Shown in pieces: positions 39,813-52,158 of a DNA stretch of 63,822 bases. Positions within the stretch are counted from its first letter, which is position 1, and every line of letters begins with the position of its first letter. The DNA is taken from positions 153,421 to 217,242 of the forward strand of contig CALXLG010000001.1 in NCBI GenBank assembly GCA_944389135.1, given 5' to 3'. The position numbers were made by a program, and so were the translations under genes. This DNA is from an uncultured Alphaproteobacteria bacterium (GTDB lineage Bacteria; Pseudomonadota; Alphaproteobacteria; Rs-D84). Under the pieces are notes generated by a model, which was not told where the DNA came from, did no database searches, and saw only the letters and a list, made by a program, of their open reading frames with translations.

Positions 39813-41006
39813 ATGAAAAAACTTACAGCAGGCATATTTGCCACATTACTGACGGTTGTGACCGTTGGCGCCGCGAATGCGAACATCGCATCACAAGGCT
39901 ATGTTGATGATATTAAAACTGCGTTAGAAGCAGATATTGATGCCAAGGCAGATTCTGCAACAACATTGGCAGGCTATGGGATCACAGATGCTTATACTAA
40001 AACAGAAGTAGATAGCGCTGTTAATCTAAAAGAAAATTCTGCAAATAAAGCCGATACAACAACAGCAACAACAGAATTGAACAAGACAAGTGAAACTTTA
40101 TTCCCAACAGTTGCAGCGACTTATAAAATTGCTGCGGATGCAGTTGCTGGCGTTACAACAGATGTAGAAGGCAAAGTTGATATTGATCAAACGGCTGCCA
40201 ATGCAAACAAAGCGATGATTACAGATGAAACTGGTAATGTAACGCCAGGAACAATCGCAACTGGTATGATTGATGCAAATGCAGTTACAAATGCAAAATT
40301 GGCAGATAGTGCAGTTACAACAACAAAGATCGTTGATGCAAATGTAACAGAAGCAAAATTGGCAACAGATGCAGTTACGACAGCAAAGATTAAAGATGCA
40401 AATGTAACAAAGGCAAAATTAGAATCTTCTGTTCAAACAACGTTGGATGATGTTGCAAAAAAAGAAAATACAGCTAATAAGGCGACCACAGCAACTGCGA
40501 CAACTTCGGAAAATCGGAGCAGTGAAACATTATTCCCAACAGTTGCGGCAACTTATAAAATCGCAGCGGATGCAGTTGCTGGCGTTACAACAGATGTAGA
40601 AGGTAAAGTTGATATAGATCAGGGCGCGGAAGATGCGAACAAAGCTGTTATTACGGATGGTACTGGTCAGGTAACAGTTGGCCAAGTTGCTTCTGGAATG
40701 ATTGCAGACGGTGCAATAATAGAGGCTAAAATTGGTACCGGTGCAGTTACAACAACTAAACTTGCTGCAGATGCAGTAACAAATGAAAAATTGGCAGATA
40801 ATGCCGTTCAAACAGCAAATATCGCGAACGGTGCAGTTACAGAAGCAAAATTAGATACAGCACTTGTAAACAAGATGAATAGCTTGATTGCAAATCCTGG
40901 TGAATGCGCGAACCCTGCAAATAAGTGTGTTTTGACATATAGTGGTACAGACTTTGCATGGGAAGTAATTGCCAGAGGTACATCAGAAGGCGAAGCACAG
41001 CCTTAA
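39813..41006 (+). CDS. Secreted repeat protein, paralog 3, with an internal duplication
   Basis: 397 aa. Signal peptide (MKKLTAGIFATLLTVVTVGAANA), then IASQGYVDDIKTALEAD. The segment with SETLFPTVAATYKIAADAVA followed by GVTTDVEGKVDIDQ occurs twice, near residues 98-150 and 240-292, and the DNA of the two copies is nearly identical. Between and after them are pentapeptide-like strings AVTTTKIVDANVTEAKL, repeated at least six times with variation, resembling phage tail-fibre beta-helix repeats. C-terminus CVLTYSGTDFAWEVIARG parallels paralog 2. AAGGAAGGG precedes the ATG. No anchor domain seen. Confidence 0.75.
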   Translation: MKKLTAGIFATLLTVVTVGAANANIASQGYVDDIKTALEADIDAKADSATTLAGYGITDAYTKTEVDSAVNLKENSANKADTTTATTELNKTSETLFPTVAATYKIAADAVAGVTTDVEGKVDIDQTAANANKAMITDETGNVTPGTIATGMIDANAVTNAKLADSAVTTTKIVDANVTEAKLATDAVTTAKIKDANVTKAKLESSVQTTLDDVAKKENTANKATTATATTSENRSSETLFPTVAATYKIAADAVAGVTTDVEGKVDIDQGAEDANKAVITDGTGQVTVGQVASGMIADGAIIEAKIGTGAVTTTKLAADAVTNEKLADNAVQTANIANGAVTEAKLDTALVNKMNSLIANPGECANPANKCVLTYSGTDFAWEVIARGTSEGEAQP

Positions 41007-41089: not shown

Positions 41090-41932
41090 ATGATAAAATC
41101 AAAGTTCATTTTTGCTGTTTCCTTAATATCTATGTTGGCGGTTGTACAAACCGCCAACGCAGATGTTGCGTCCAAGGGATATGTTGACGACATTGTTGGT
41201 GCTATTTCAACAGATGTTTCTGCGTCTGTTAGTGGAACAGGTAATGTCATAACAAATGTCGGTGCAGATGGTGATACAATAACAGCGACAAAGGGTATAA
41301 CAGCCGAAGAAACAAAAAACAAAGTTACGACAATTCGTGATACAGCAACCGCAACGGATACCGCATATCCATCAGAAAAGGCAGTTGCAACAGCTTTGGA
41401 AGGGAAACAAGATAAGCTTGATGGCGAAGTTCTAACTAATACTGCAACTGGTACAGGCTCTTTAAGCACCGGTGGCGCAGAAGCAACAGCAGCTAGTTCT
41501 GCGATTGCTATTGGAACCGATGCAACTGCTTCTGGTAATAATAGCGTAGCTGTTGGTAATATTTCTTCTGCTTCTGGTAATTATTCTGTGGCTTTGGGAA
41601 ATGTAGCTATGGGAACTAAGGAGTACGGAACTGCTGTCGGGGCTTTTGCTTATGCTATGGGTGATAACTCCTCTGCTTTGGGAGGAAATGCACATGCTTA
41701 TGCTAATAACAGTTCAGCTTTTGGTGCTGGGGCGGTGGCCAATTCTGAGTATTCTATACAATTAGGGCGTGGAACAAATTCAGAAGCGAATACATTAAGT
41801 GTCGGGCTTAGTGATAATAAGAATTACAAATTACTTGGTTCAGATGGTAAAATTCCGTCAGAACGTATGCCTAATACTATCCCTGTTGGCAGTGTAACCG
41901 CTACTACTTATGCGACTATGTGGGTTGAATAA
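41090..41932 (+). CDS. Secreted protein with YadA-head-type repeats, paralog 4
   Basis: 280 aa. Signal peptide (MIKSKFIFAVSLISMLAVVQTANA), then VASKGYVDDIVGAI as in its neighbours. Residues about 140-225 are left-handed beta-roll repeats of the YadA-head/Hep_Hag kind with the S-x-A-x-G pattern: NNSVAVGNISSASGN, NYSVALGNVA, DNSSALGGNAHAYAN, NSSAFGAGAVANS. The final ~50 residues include KNYKLLGSDGKIPSERMP and end MWVE. The C-terminal YadA anchor barrel is absent, so it is not a self-sufficient type Vc autotransporter. Weak ribosome binding site (AAGCGAG). A terminator follows. Confidence 0.75.
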   Translation: MIKSKFIFAVSLISMLAVVQTANADVASKGYVDDIVGAISTDVSASVSGTGNVITNVGADGDTITATKGITAEETKNKVTTIRDTATATDTAYPSEKAVATALEGKQDKLDGEVLTNTATGTGSLSTGGAEATAASSAIAIGTDATASGNNSVAVGNISSASGNYSVALGNVAMGTKEYGTAVGAFAYAMGDNSSALGGNAHAYANNSSAFGAGAVANSEYSIQLGRGTNSEANTLSVGLSDNKNYKLLGSDGKIPSERMPNTIPVGSVTATTYATMWVE

Positions 41933-43862: not shown

Positions 43863-45659
43863 ATGAATCAAAAAAATATCAGAAATTTTGCAATAGTTGC
43901 GCATATTGACCATGGCAAATCAACATTATCAGATAGGTTGATTGAATTTACAGGTGGTTTAGAATCGCGTGAAATGAAATCTCAGGTTTTAGATTCTATG
44001 GACATTGAACGCGAACGTGGTATTACTATCAAGGCGCAAACTGTTCGCTTAAATTATAAAGCTAAAGACGGGCAAGTATATCAATTAAATTTAATGGACA
44101 CTCCTGGACATGTTGACTTCTCTTATGAAGTATCGCGAAGCTTGGCTGCGTGTGAGGGGGCGTTAATTTTAGTTGATGCAACACAAGGGGTTCAAGCACA
44201 GACGCTGGCGAATGCTTATCTTGCACTGGATAATGATTTAGAAATGTTGCCTGTGTTAAATAAAATTGATTTGCCGTCTAGTGATGTTGAAGCAACGCGT
44301 AATCAAATAGCTGATGTTATTGGTTTGGATGCCAAAGATGCGATATGTGTTTCTGGTAAAACTGGGGCAGGGGTTCCAGATTTGTTAGAAGAGATTGTTC
44401 ATAAATTGCCGTGCCCGCATGGTGATGAAAGTGCTTCAACACGTGCGCTGTTAGTGGATTCTTGGTATGATTCTTATTTGGGTGTTGTGATTTTAGTTCG
44501 TGTTGTTGACGGGCAATTACAACGTGGTCAGAAAATAAGATTTATGGCAACAGGGGCAGAGTATACTGTTGAAAAAATTGGATACTTTACACCTAAAATG
44601 GTAGATGCGGATAAATTATCTACTGGTGAAATTGGCTTTATAATTACAGGGATGAAAACAATTCATGACTGTAAAGTAGGGGATACAATTATTGATACCA
44701 AATGCACTTCGTGTGATGCGTTACCTGGGTTTAAGCCTTCCGTTCCTGTTGTGTTTTCTTCTTTCTTCCCAGTAGAAGCAGATGATTATCCTGATTTGCG
44801 CGATGGGGCAGAAAAATTGGCGTTAAATGATGCGTCTTTTATGTTTACGACTGAAAAATCTTCTGCGCTGGGATTTGGCTTGCGCTGTGGTTTCTTGGGG
44901 CTTTTACATATGGAAATTATTAGCGAACGTTTGCGTCGTGAATTTAATCTAAGTTTAATAAATACTGTTCCAAGCGTATTATATAAAGTGTATTTGCGTG
45001 ATGGTAGTGTTGTTGACCTTGAAAACCCCGCTGATATGCCAGATTTAACTAAAATTGCATCAATAGAAGAACCGTGGGTCAGGGCAACAATTATGATGCC
45101 AGATAAGTATATGGGCGGAATAATGTCGCTATGTTCTGAACGCAGAGGTGTGCAAGAAAATATCTCTTATGTTGGTAATAGAGCTGTTTTGGTATATTTA
45201 CTGCCGTTGGCAGAAATTGTATTTGATTTTTATGATAGGGTAAAATCTTTGTCATCAGGCTATGCCTCTTTTGATTATGTTTTGCATGGTTATCAAGCAT
45301 CTGATTTGGTAAAAGTTTCAATACTTGTTAACGAAGAGAATGTTGAACCCTTATCGTTTATGTGTCATCGCAGTGTCGCAGAAAAACGTGGAAGACAAAT
45401 TGTAGAAAAATTAAAAGATTTAATTCCAAGACATCAGTTCAAAATACCTTTGCAGGCTGCTATTGGGGGAAAAATTATCGCACGTGAAACAATTGCTGCG
45501 TATCGCAAAGATGTTACTGCAAAGTGTTATGGTGGCGATATTACGCGAAAAAGAAAATTGTTGGAAAAGCAGAAGGAGGGGAAAAAGCGTATGCGGACAT
45601 TTGGTAATGTAGAAATACCACAGTCTGCGTTTATAAATGCATTGAAGGTTAATTCTTAA
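43863..45659 (+). CDS. lepA: Elongation factor 4 (LepA)
   Basis: 598 aa, typical length. Ribosome-dependent GTPase that aids translation under stress and initiation-complex assembly. GTP motifs: AHIDHGKST (G1), [10 protein letters not shown] (G2), MDTPGHVDF (G3), NKIDLP (G4) and SGKTGAG (G5). C-terminal LepA domain present, with [19 protein letters not shown] and [17 protein letters not shown]. The ATG at 43863 ([12 protein letters not shown]) is preceded by TTGGGG; the open frame reaches a TTG 12 nt upstream, which is less likely. Confidence 0.96.
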
Positions 45660-45670
45660 AAAGGAAAAAA

Positions 45671-46051
45671 ATGTTAAAAGCTACTTTTGTATATTTGAAT
45701 AATGTATCTTTTGGGGATTTAAAAAAAGACCTACAAGAATATTTTCTTGTTAAAAAAGATATTAGAAAATTAGAAAGAATATACAAAACAGCTATGGCAA
45801 GTATTACCGAGTTTAAGCATGGGCACCAAAAAGTTAAGTCATGTATTCGGGTTAGTTTGAATGTTTACTCTGAAAATGAGCTTCGCGTTAAAAGAATAAA
45901 GTATTGTCCAAATATAAATCAAGGTTGTTATAAGGTTTCCTGTCAATATTATGAAAGTATGCGACATTATAAGTTTGTAAAAGACAAATTAGAAAAAGCA
46001 GTCGCAAAAAAACAAAACTTTTGGCAGAAAAAAATTCAAAAGGCAAAATAA
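45671..46051 (+). CDS. Unknown small Cys-containing protein, paralog 1 of 3
   Basis: 126 aa, basic, no signal peptide. It shares an outline with the next two genes: an N-terminal GDLKKDLQEYFLVKKD segment (cf. NDLKDFILAKQ, NDVKQYVALHG), a C-x6-C-x4-C-[YF] motif (KYCPNINQGCYKVSCQYYES) and a C-terminal FWQKKIQKAK. The three Cys are spaced so that they could bind one metal ion or form a local disulfide. No family recognised. AAAAAGGAAAAAA precedes the ATG; it starts 11 nt after lepA. First of a likely operon of three paralogs plus an integrase-like gene. Confidence 0.7.
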   Translation: MLKATFVYLNNVSFGDLKKDLQEYFLVKKDIRKLERIYKTAMASITEFKHGHQKVKSCIRVSLNVYSENELRVKRIKYCPNINQGCYKVSCQYYESMRHYKFVKDKLEKAVAKKQNFWQKKIQKAK

Positions 46052-46064
46052 AAAGGTGTTTTTT

Positions 46065-46454
46065 ATGAGCGCAATTAAATATTTTATGACGGTTCCCTAT
46101 GAGTGTATTTTTAATGATGTAAAGCAGTATGTTGCTTTACATGGGCAATGCTTAAAATTAAAAAAACAATATCGTCAAAGACGTAAAGATTTTGATGCTT
46201 TATTAGATAGCTGGGACAATATCTCTGATAAAGAAAAAAAGTGTTGCGACGAGGTTTTTACAGAAATGTTTGGCAATAAGAAGACTAAAACTATCTCTTG
46301 TTGTCTGTTTTTAGATTCTTTAGGGCTTTGTCAAGATAAGGTTTGTAAATTTTCAATGCTTAATAAAAATTATCAAGATTTGGTGCATGCGTATTATAAG
46401 CTAAAAAACACAAGACAAGATTTTTGGACACAAAAATTTGAAAAAGTTAAATAA
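46065..46454 (+). CDS. Unknown small Cys-containing protein, paralog 2 of 3
   Basis: 129 aa. N-terminus MSAIKYFMTVPYECIFNDVKQY resembles the third paralog's MGFIKYLFCTSYKTKENDLKDF over the positions IKYx(F/L)x(T)xxY, and the C-terminus FWTQKFEKVK matches FWKRKFELVK. The Cys group SCCLFLDSLGLCQDKVC corresponds to the shared C-x(5-7)-C-x4-C motif. The central helices carry the longest divergence. The ATG at 46065 has AAAAAGG 9 nt upstream and is preferred to the GTG at 46056. Function unknown. Confidence 0.7.
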   Translation: MSAIKYFMTVPYECIFNDVKQYVALHGQCLKLKKQYRQRRKDFDALLDSWDNISDKEKKCCDEVFTEMFGNKKTKTISCCLFLDSLGLCQDKVCKFSMLNKNYQDLVHAYYKLKNTRQDFWTQKFEKVK

Positions 46455-46473
46455 AACTTAAAGGAGATTATAA

Positions 46474-46878
46474 ATGGGATTTATAAAATATTTGTTTTGT
46501 ACTTCTTATAAAACCAAGGAAAATGATTTAAAAGATTTTATCTTGGCAAAGCAAATTTGCAGTGCTGCAAAACGCTCTTATTATGCTAGCTATAATAATA
46601 TCACTTTTAAAGGTAAAGAATACCCATGGGGAACAGAGCCTGTAGATGGTTGTGTTAAGATATATGTTTATATTGCAAATGTTGGCTCTGAACATGACCC
46701 GGTAGTATCTCCGCAGATGAGTAAATGTACAAAATTTTCAGAAGAACACTTGTGTAATAATAATAAATGCAGATATTATGAAAGGTATAAAGAATATTTA
46801 GAAGCAAAATCTGCGTATGAAGAACAAAGAAAACGTAAAAAGCATTTCTGGAAACGAAAATTCGAATTAGTAAAATAA
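46474..46878 (+). CDS. Unknown small Cys-containing protein, paralog 3 of 3
   Basis: 134 aa. MGFIKYLFCTSYKTKENDLKDF start, central EPVDGCVKIYVYIANVGSE (cf. SCIRVSLNVYSENE in paralog 1), Cys group KCTKFSEEHLCNNNKCRYYE and C-terminal helix rich in Lys/Arg/Glu ending FWKRKFELVK. AAAGGAGA lies 11 nt upstream of the ATG, the best ribosome binding site of the three. The integrase-like gene starts 9 nt after its stop. No known family. Confidence 0.7.
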   Translation: MGFIKYLFCTSYKTKENDLKDFILAKQICSAAKRSYYASYNNITFKGKEYPWGTEPVDGCVKIYVYIANVGSEHDPVVSPQMSKCTKFSEEHLCNNNKCRYYERYKEYLEAKSAYEEQRKRKKHFWKRKFELVK

Positions 46879-46887
46879 AAGACGAAA

Positions 46888-47886
46888 ATGGCACATCAAT
46901 TCTTCTTTAACCCTTATATTTTAGATAACTTGCCTGCGCCAAGTACAGGGTTTGATGTGGTGCAAGATTTGTCTGAACCAAATTTGCGTTTGTATATCAC
47001 AAGCCATGGTGTCAAAAGCTTTTTTGTTAGAAAACGTATTCATGGTAAAGATAAAAGAATTATAATTGGTAATTACCCAGATATGGATATAGAGACAGCC
47101 AGGGATAAGGTATCAGTCGTTTTAGAAAACGCAAAAATAAAACGAGTTGTAAGACATAAGAAAATAAATTTTAAAAAATTTGTTAACTTATATATAGTAA
47201 ATAGGGTGCGACGTAGTGGAACTTCTTTAGACAAGTTAGAGCGTTCTATTAATAGACATTTGTCATCGTTGTTTGATAAAAATGTATCAGATATATCGGA
47301 AAGGGACTTAATAGATGTTGTTGCAAGCATAGATGGACAGACAATAGCAGGCCGAATGCAAGAGTTATTACAAAGCATGTTTAATTATGCTGTAGAAAAC
47401 GGATATGCAAAAAACAATCCAATTATAAATTTGCCAAAAATAAAACCCGTTCGTCGTTTAAGACCCTTGAATAAAACAGGTCTGCAGAAGTTGGTTACTG
47501 TTATCAAAAAAGAAGAAAATGAAGTGATAAGAACCGCTTTTTTAATGTTGGTGTATGGTTTTGCACCAAAGTCAAAGATATTTTCTATGCAATGGTCTGA
47601 TTTAGATTTTAATCATTATATGTGGTGTGATAGACCTTTGACTGATGCTGCGGTTGTTGCTTTACAAGATTTACCACAAGATGGGCGATGGGTATTTCCA
47701 GGTAGAGGCAGAGGACATTTGACCGACCCCAGATTAGCGTGGCAACGTGTCGCGAAGAGAGCTGGAATATCAAACCTTACAATGGATGATGTTTATAAAT
47801 TTTTGTCTAGACAATTAATATGGACGTCAGATAAAGAAGACTTTAGAACAAATATGAATAAGGTTTTAGAAGATTTAATGTTGTGA
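46888..47886 (+). CDS. Integrase-like tyrosine recombinase homolog lacking catalytic residues
   Basis: 332 aa. Layout of P4-type integrases: an N-terminal Arm (DUF4102-like) domain with LRLYITSHGVKSFFVRKRI and IIIGNYPDMDIETARDKV (residues about 30-75), a core-binding SAM-like domain with MQELLQSMFNYAVENGYAKNNP (about 155-180), and a C-terminal fold. The catalytic positions are altered: the first Arg region (normally TGxRxxE) reads YGFAPKSKIFSMQW (223-236), the H-x-x-R box reads LTMDDVYKFLSRQ (297-309), and the protein ends about 23 residues later without the Tyr segment. It is probably a DNA-binding protein without recombinase activity, or a decayed integrase. No att site was seen. Confidence 0.7.
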   Translation: MAHQFFFNPYILDNLPAPSTGFDVVQDLSEPNLRLYITSHGVKSFFVRKRIHGKDKRIIIGNYPDMDIETARDKVSVVLENAKIKRVVRHKKINFKKFVNLYIVNRVRRSGTSLDKLERSINRHLSSLFDKNVSDISERDLIDVVASIDGQTIAGRMQELLQSMFNYAVENGYAKNNPIINLPKIKPVRRLRPLNKTGLQKLVTVIKKEENEVIRTAFLMLVYGFAPKSKIFSMQWSDLDFNHYMWCDRPLTDAAVVALQDLPQDGRWVFPGRGRGHLTDPRLAWQRVAKRAGISNLTMDDVYKFLSRQLIWTSDKEDFRTNMNKVLEDLML

Positions 47887-47903: not shown

Positions 47904-47933
47904 TTGTCAACTTTTGTTATTGTTTGTTATAAT
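47904..47933 (+). promoter_or_regulatory. Probable acpP promoter
   Basis: TTGTCA (47904-47909), 18-nt spacer, TATAAT (47928-47933), about 80 nt before the acpP ATG. A second -35-like TTGACA lies at 47937. Confidence 0.6.
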
Positions 47934-48019: not shown

Positions 48020-48253
48020 ATGACAACTTTTGAAAAAGTAAAAAAAATCGTAATTGAAAAATTGGGGGTATCAGAAGCGAAAGTTACAGAAGAAGCTTCT
48101 TTCGTTAACGATTTGGGCGCAGATTCTTTGGACGTTGTTGAATTCGTTATGGAAGTTGAAAAAGAATTTAATATCACAATTCCAGATGAAGAAGCTGCAA
48201 AATTGGCAACGGTTGGTGATGCTGTTAAATATATTGAAGCACATCAGAAATAA
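48020..48253 (+). CDS. acpP: Acyl carrier protein
   Basis: 77 aa. Carrier of fatty-acid intermediates; the phosphopantetheine-attachment Ser is in [15 protein letters not shown] (DSL motif). Acidic and helical as expected, starting [17 protein letters not shown]. The ATG at 48020 follows AAAGGAAAAAA; the open frame upstream is not used. Followed by a terminator and fabF, so acpP has its own transcript end with likely partial read-through. Confidence 0.97.
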
Positions 48254-52024: not shown

Positions 52025-52158
52025 TTTATAACCTTTTAACTAACGTAATTGTGAGTATTGCAGATAATTTTTATAAGTAAAAGAAAATAATTCATAAAAC
52101 AGTTGATTTTTGAAGTATGCGGTTGCATAATCCGGCTAGTTCTTAAGCTAAGAAAAAC

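Follow-up and report, generated by a model that had tools for sequence, protein, structure and literature searches.

The P4-type integrase-like protein encoded between lepA and acpP in a Candidatus Enterousia-type alphaproteobacterium has lost every catalytic position of its family, and the explanation that we favor, with reasonable rather than high confidence, is that a domesticated, inactive recombinase is kept there as a DNA-binding protein and borders an accessory-gene hotspot with independently turning-over four-cysteine (4-Cys) genes. Recombinases turned DNA-binding proteins are already known from phages, and our searches of libraries and open-access literature, as far as they reached, turned up no description of one that is chromosomal, present family-wide, equipped with an arm domain and accompanied by a cargo hotspot. 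If this explanation is true, a chromosomal dead recombinase has been fixed family-wide and the route to a regulator that is seen in a few phages would also be open to cell genomes. None of the libraries searched contains a described relative of the 4-Cys family, and the exchange of its members at a single site reveals an accessory-gene hotspot in supposedly stripped-down organisms. The availability of orthologues from 13 genera and of a high-confidence small-protein model makes both the DNA target and any partnership directly testable in vitro.

Genetic organization of the locus

The window is the whole stretch of DNA analyzed here, with a length of 63,822 nucleotides. Comparison with a genome collection identified the host as a Candidatus Enterousia-type alphaproteobacterium of the order Rs-D84, and the genome carrying the locus (G000) is about 1 Mb in size (986,597 bases). 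Enterousia belongs to this order, within an animal-gut group with reduced genomes (PMC12306168). Three small genes, the integrase-like gene, acpP (48020) and fabF (48388) follow lepA in a head-to-tail run, and the locus is AT-richer than its surroundings (GC content of 29–33% vs mostly 36–44%). The features are listed below with their coordinates in the window, strand and the evidence used for each assignment.

43863..45659, + strand: lepA (elongation factor 4), which borders the variable interval on its upstream side (ORF list; order in 87/87 genus contigs)
45671..46051, + strand: 4-Cys small protein 1, 126 aa (leave-out profile, E 5e-20)
46065..46454, + strand: 4-Cys small protein 2, 129 aa, with a GTG at 46056 as an alternative start (leave-out profile, E 3e-19)
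46474..46878, + strand: 4-Cys small protein 3, 134 aa (leave-out profile, E 2e-29; AF2 model)
46888..47886, + strand: catalytically dead P4-type integrase-like protein, 332 aa (Pfam, orthologues, catalytic columns, AF2, fold search)
46888..47142, + strand: arm-type DNA-binding domain, residues 1–85, the best-conserved domain (PF13356; 3jtz; dN/dS 0.11)
47143..47472, + strand: core-binding (SAM-like) domain, residues 86–195 (PF22022; 2kj9)
47473..47883, + strand: shortened remnant of the catalytic domain, residues 196–332 (catalytic-column alignments)
47913..47932, + strand: tandem box TTTGTTAT-N2-TTTGTTATAA, just 5' of the −35 element of the acpP promoter (conservation across the genus)
48020..48253, + strand: acpP, downstream border (ORF list; gene-order survey)

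The original prediction, made from the window alone, had described intact and tightly spaced ORFs placed between lepA and acpP, with neither a tRNA nor visible att repeats, and these points were all borne out. The four frames are unbroken, with a gap of 9 nt between small gene 3 and the integrase-like gene, and the order lepA–integrase-like gene–acpP–fabF was found in 87 of the 87 genus contigs holding all four genes. Within the genus contigs, the distances from the integrase-like gene to acpP (124–141 nt) and from acpP to fabF (123–148 nt, both as 10–90% ranges) are nearly constant, and the interval between lepA and the integrase-like gene varies from 14 to 2282 nt. The sole tRNA of the window, tRNA-Pro at 52158, lies 4.3 kb off; no tRNA or att target was detected at the end of the locus, and the repeats seen in the window were short and AT-rich, none of them convincing as att sites. 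One 14-nt AT-rich repeat, TTAAAAGATTTAAT (93%), occurs at 45411–45424 within lepA, at 46528–46541 within small gene 3 and at 47866–47879 at the end of the integrase-like gene, and its recurrence within the window is probably due to chance. Further upstream, the ORF list contains two secreted-looking repetitive proteins that resemble trimeric adhesins (39813–41006 and 41090–41932).

Domain architecture and fold of the integrase-like protein

Pfam analysis of the 332-aa protein identified the arm domain (PF13356, 32.5 bits) and the core-binding domain (PF22022, 29.9 bits) above the cut-off of 27 that applies to each, and the score for the catalytic domain (PF00589, 14.3) remained below its cut-off of 27.1. 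The protein is not a XerC or XerD by the NCBIfam equivalogs, with 15.1 bits for XerD against a cut-off of 329.6 and 13.1 bits for XerC against 335.15. The AF2 model (pLDDT 86, pTM 0.54) matched lambda Int (Z 13.3) and the Tn1549 integrase in the fold search. Residues 1–85 could be superimposed on the arm domain of the HPI integrase (3jtz) over 77 residues with Z 12.0 and an rmsd of 2.2 Å, and the core-binding domain matched 2kj9 with Z 14.0. The integrase-fold repressors SroF (9rd5, Z 8.7) and MrpR (8a0a, Z 8.1) were also among the matches of the model, other recombinases being in the same range. Intact integrases encoded in related genomes (G037 and G027) share 31–33% sequence identity with the protein, and no close relatives were found in a scan of viral contigs.

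Loss of the catalytic centre

Five intact Rs-D84 integrases, among them one encoded by the window's own genome (G000:C3, L066), were aligned with the protein to read off the catalytic columns. The positions of Arg I, His II, Arg II and Tyr are occupied by P227, D300, Y303 and I311, the HDLRR of the intact integrases is replaced by DDVYK, and both the 10-residue beta hairpin bearing the catalytic Lys and a 24-residue segment with the GH motif are deleted. All catalytic positions are substituted or deleted in 96/96 genus copies, as expected from the earlier suggestion that the catalytic Arg, the H-x-x-R box and the Tyr segment had been replaced. Among these copies, Arg I is replaced by P, T, S, H or Q, His II always by D, and Arg II by Y, H or N. 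In genus g22, two genomes have an Arg in the Arg I column. All copies of the other genera of the family lack the HxxR, GH and Tyr elements wherever they cover these parts, indicating that the loss of catalysis preceded the radiation of the family.

It is highly improbable that the protein still recombines DNA by means of an atypical active site. This possibility would be consistent with the invariance of D300, D301, K304 and W312, which lie in the former HxxR/Tyr region of all 96 genus copies, but ten different residues, Tyr never among them, occupy the former Tyr position, and the segments carrying the Lys and the His/Trp are both deleted. An alternative active site was rejected, since no conserved nucleophile replaces the Tyr in the genus or in the deeper genera copies that cover the region.

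Maintenance and distribution of the integrase-like gene

The length of 332–339 aa is kept without truncation or break in 96/96 genus copies. The dN/dS values, calculated by the Nei–Gojobori method for pairs with dS < 1.5 and with dS partly near saturation, are mostly between 0.05 and 0.2 with a median of 0.18, indicating purifying selection. By part, the median for genus pairs is lowest in the arm domain (0.11), followed by the catalytic remnant (0.16) and the core-binding domain (0.23). The loss of the catalytic residues and the shortened C-terminal part could suggest a pseudogene, that is, an integrase that recently decayed or suffered a frameshift, the alternative named in the original prediction; this has next to no chance of being true, as it is refuted by intact orthologues with an unbroken frame, low dN/dS and the same losses throughout the family. 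The reading put forward instead, a kept function and probably DNA binding rather than decay, agrees with the intact frame and the strong purifying selection.

A 43-row profile (E<=1e-50) matched in 174/201 genomes of the order Rs-D84. The matches comprise 173 from the window's family (173/183 genomes) and one intact integrase of another family (G037). In the other genera of the family, the gene is present in 12/12 genera sampled and in 25/27 genomes, and most of these genera also keep its placement in the order lepA–integrase-like gene–acpP–fabF. The remaining 10/183 family genomes gave no profile match, and three of them are at least 93% complete (G116, G145 and G152, with 99% for G145), which indicates that the gene is not universal. 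These three fairly complete genomes belong to the genus and may represent true losses. In genus g26 (G197), the gene is unbroken and sits beside dnaN (named by inspection), indicating that its upkeep is independent of lepA and of the small genes. Furthermore, long retention of a useless gene is unlikely in view of the reduced genomes of the host group (PMC12306168). Judged from its sequence and distribution, the integrase-like gene is an old, vertically inherited and domesticated gene rather than a decaying integrase. The idea of a domesticated relic of a mobile island was thus half right: domestication is borne out and the guess at the origin of the gene was fair, but there is no remaining att site, tRNA or island to document it.

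Putative role and comparison with known systems

The favored explanation would start with a P4-type tyrosine recombinase that became fixed in the ancestor of one Rs-D84 family. Its arm and core-binding domains are retained and its catalytic domain is reduced to a scaffold, so that DNA would be neither cut nor rejoined. The protein most likely occupies DNA and thereby influences transcription or DNA architecture, in analogy to MrpR. The Enterousia hotspot contains 0–5 fast-evolving 4-Cys proteins, and their gain and loss do not depend on the integrase-like gene. The DNA-occupying role is suggested because the DNA-binding parts are kept with the arm as the most constrained part, the cutting part is dismantled alike everywhere, and MrpR provides a precedent. 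By this analogy, the integrase-like protein probably binds DNA and has a regulatory role.

MrpR of phage SPbeta has a tyrosine-recombinase fold, has lost recombination and represses by binding to a repeated DNA element (PMC10516654). MrpR/YopR and SroF of Bacillus SPbeta-type phages share with the 332-aa protein a tyrosine-recombinase fold in which catalytic residues are lost. However, they are phage proteins of a distant lineage, whereas the 332-aa protein is chromosomal and family-wide, and the likeness seen is that of recombinase folds in general. In addition, MrpR is described as made up of a core-binding and a catalytic domain alone, and it retains the Lys and Tyr; the 332-aa protein has lost both and carries an arm domain. 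The P4-type integrases (PF13356, PF22022 and PF00589) have the same domain order and arm structure, but the 332-aa protein differs from them in the loss of the catalytic positions in the genus, the lack of a tRNA/att context and vertical inheritance.

The streptococcal XerD-like protein is another chromosomal, vertically kept relative of tyrosine recombinases without active-site residues. It differs from the 332-aa protein in being from another phylum, Xer-type rather than P4-type, and devoid of an arm domain.

The 4-Cys protein family

A leave-out profile, from which the window copies were excluded, found all three small genes at the E values listed above, with a next best value of 0.07 among the 170 window ORFs and 300 shuffled copies; the three genes had been predicted to be paralogues, and they are. 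The predicted three-Cys motif, C-x(5-7)-C-x4-C, proved to be real as a Cys motif, but the conserved cysteines are four and the motif ends in C-x(6-8)-C-x4-C. They are located at positions 58/79/86/91 in protein 1, 60 or 61/80/89/94 in protein 2 and 60/85/94/99 in protein 3. The four columns are invariant in a 76-row alignment and occupied by Cys at 99–100% in 153 distinct family members with a mean column identity of about 22%. Weak motifs are found at the start (D-x-x-E-Y-x-x-L) and at the end (K/R-x-x-F-W-x-x-K-F) of the proteins. The best hit of reversed and shuffled controls in the family search had an E value of 0.024.

The AF2 model of small protein 3, built on the 76-row alignment (pLDDT 93.7, pTM 0.82), shows a pair of long helices, a beta hairpin and a loop rich in Cys. 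No match over cut-off was obtained for the 4-Cys proteins in Pfam, PHROGs, NCBIfam or PADLOC, and the best matches of the model among solved and viral structures were a Foldseek E of 0.41 and a Z of 6.8, the latter to helical hairpins. None of these hairpin matches, which include V-ATPase subunit D and BAR domains, was clear, which is no proof of a new fold; matches of the family profile to gp32 and zinc fingers were rejected as chance level. The four invariant Cys, in small proteins that lack an obvious export signal, suggest a bound metal, and the 4-Cys proteins are probably metal-binding helical hairpins.

The family is present in 29/35 genus genomes, the window's own included, and in 0/24 genomes of other families. 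Restriction to a single genus was rejected, since distant members were detected in two other genera of the same family (2/27 genomes). A few genus genomes also have solo 4-Cys copies away from the locus. A near-identical solo gene is found in two species (G025:C2:10800-11144, L179, and G029:C2:200721-201065, L180), and the differing neighbour genes suggest a recent transfer. In some Enterousia, ACP-like genes occur among the small genes and in few cases are fused to a 4-Cys domain (L101 4277–4915; L102 3858–4487, a tandem ACP; L105 4326–4943; L116 5319–5975; G012, L032; G029, L036).

Accessory-gene turnover between lepA and the integrase-like gene

The interval between lepA and the integrase-like gene is an accessory-gene hotspot and not the fixed four-gene cassette that had been predicted. 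In the 93 genomes surveyed that keep the integrase-like gene, the number of 4-Cys copies is 0 in 9, 1 in 39, 2 in 20, 3 in 18, 4 in 6 and 5 in 1, and nearly all ORFs of the interval in the genus belong to this family. For L071 and L072, which encode integrase-like proteins of 94% identity, a two-gene block is cleanly present in one locus and absent from the other; their alignment breaks just behind lepA and restarts at the start codon of the integrase-like gene. In sister genera, the interval contains a RhuM-Fic protein (PADLOC candidate PDC-S23) in g19 and a similar protein in g22 (by inspection), or else a 23S rRNA IVP, a beta-lactamase-family protein, a NUDIX protein, a peptidase S51 or nothing; the second IVP and second NUDIX copies were identified by inspection. 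Extra genes are also found between rbfA and lepA in 34/84 genus genomes, indicating that the whole neighbourhood is permissive. By eye, the extra ORFs upstream of lepA are acetyltransferase-like or four-helix-bundle-like. Interspecies transfer had been considered on the basis of a very low dS of some small genes relative to the integrase-like gene, and was rejected for L101/L102, where the tract includes lepA and homologous recombination in the flank suffices.

The 4-Cys proteins and the dead integrase could instead form one module, either a repressor with partners or antagonists or a defence unit in which hypervariable proteins serve in recognition, which we regard as possible but unlikely. 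All 164 of the 164 4-Cys members of the genus loci are located between lepA and the integrase-like gene on the same strand, the last one at a median of 21 nt before it, and the small genes evolve faster in the same genome pairs (median dN/dS of 0.28 vs 0.08; median dN ratio of 2.6). Such a module would also be in line with the RhuM-Fic candidate in the same interval of g19 and with phi3T, where SroF has a small protein antagonist, Sar; a repressor–antirepressor complex of this integrase-fold protein has been solved, according to the title of entry 9rgl. However, the integrase-like gene remains at low dN/dS where one genome of a pair is without the small gene (L071/L072 and L111/L137), it is kept in genera with unrelated interval cargo or none, and small-family copies occur alone elsewhere. 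That a fixed chromosomal regulator derived from the dead integrase and hypervariable, exchanged 4-Cys partners together make up a locus for sensing or defence of a new type is a long shot. Independent turnover next to a kept, probably DNA-binding protein is the reading that we retain.

Tandem box upstream of acpP

No DNA target of the integrase-like protein was found, and the nearest conserved site is the tandem box, which adjoins the integrase-like gene and is conserved in nearly all genus genomes. In Enterousia, the 10-bp tandem box TTTGTTAT-N2-TTTGTTATA is found before acpP–fabF, lpxA–lpxB and an outer-membrane protein gene. Occurrences are at 47913–47932 in the window, at 2568–2584 of L250, in L217–L219, L221 and L227, and in L269, L270, L272–L275, L278 and L282. 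Related boxes, TTTGTAAT-N2-TTTGTAAT, lie upstream of lpxA in sister families without the integrase-like gene, and the set has the appearance of an envelope regulon shared across the order. Tandem repeats of 10 bp located 5' of the −35 element are typical of OmpR-family regulators, e.g., CenR (PMC9275681).

A reader of the acpP and lpxA–lpxB box could be the integrase-like protein, which would then replace an older response regulator in the control of envelope genes. The box next to its gene, the recurrence of the box before lpxA–lpxB and the outer-membrane protein gene, and the shortened, diverged winged helix of the sole response regulator of the genus would fit this proposal, which is nevertheless improbable because of the boxes in families without the gene, the OmpR-family form of the repeat and the one such regulator that remains. 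The tandem box was therefore rejected as the operator of the integrase-like protein. A complete loss of OmpR-type regulators, suggested by the lack of PF00486 matches in the genus, was likewise rejected, since each genus genome encodes one response regulator with a shortened and diverged OmpR-type winged-helix domain, and with this finding the idea of a replacement by the integrase-like protein was dropped. The predicted reader of the box is more likely this single OmpR-type response regulator. In the window's genome, it is encoded at G000:C5:18175-18504 (L298; compare L302), and its winged helix is without about 14 residues in the region of helix 2. The regulator may have changed together with the box, from GTAAT to GTTAT.
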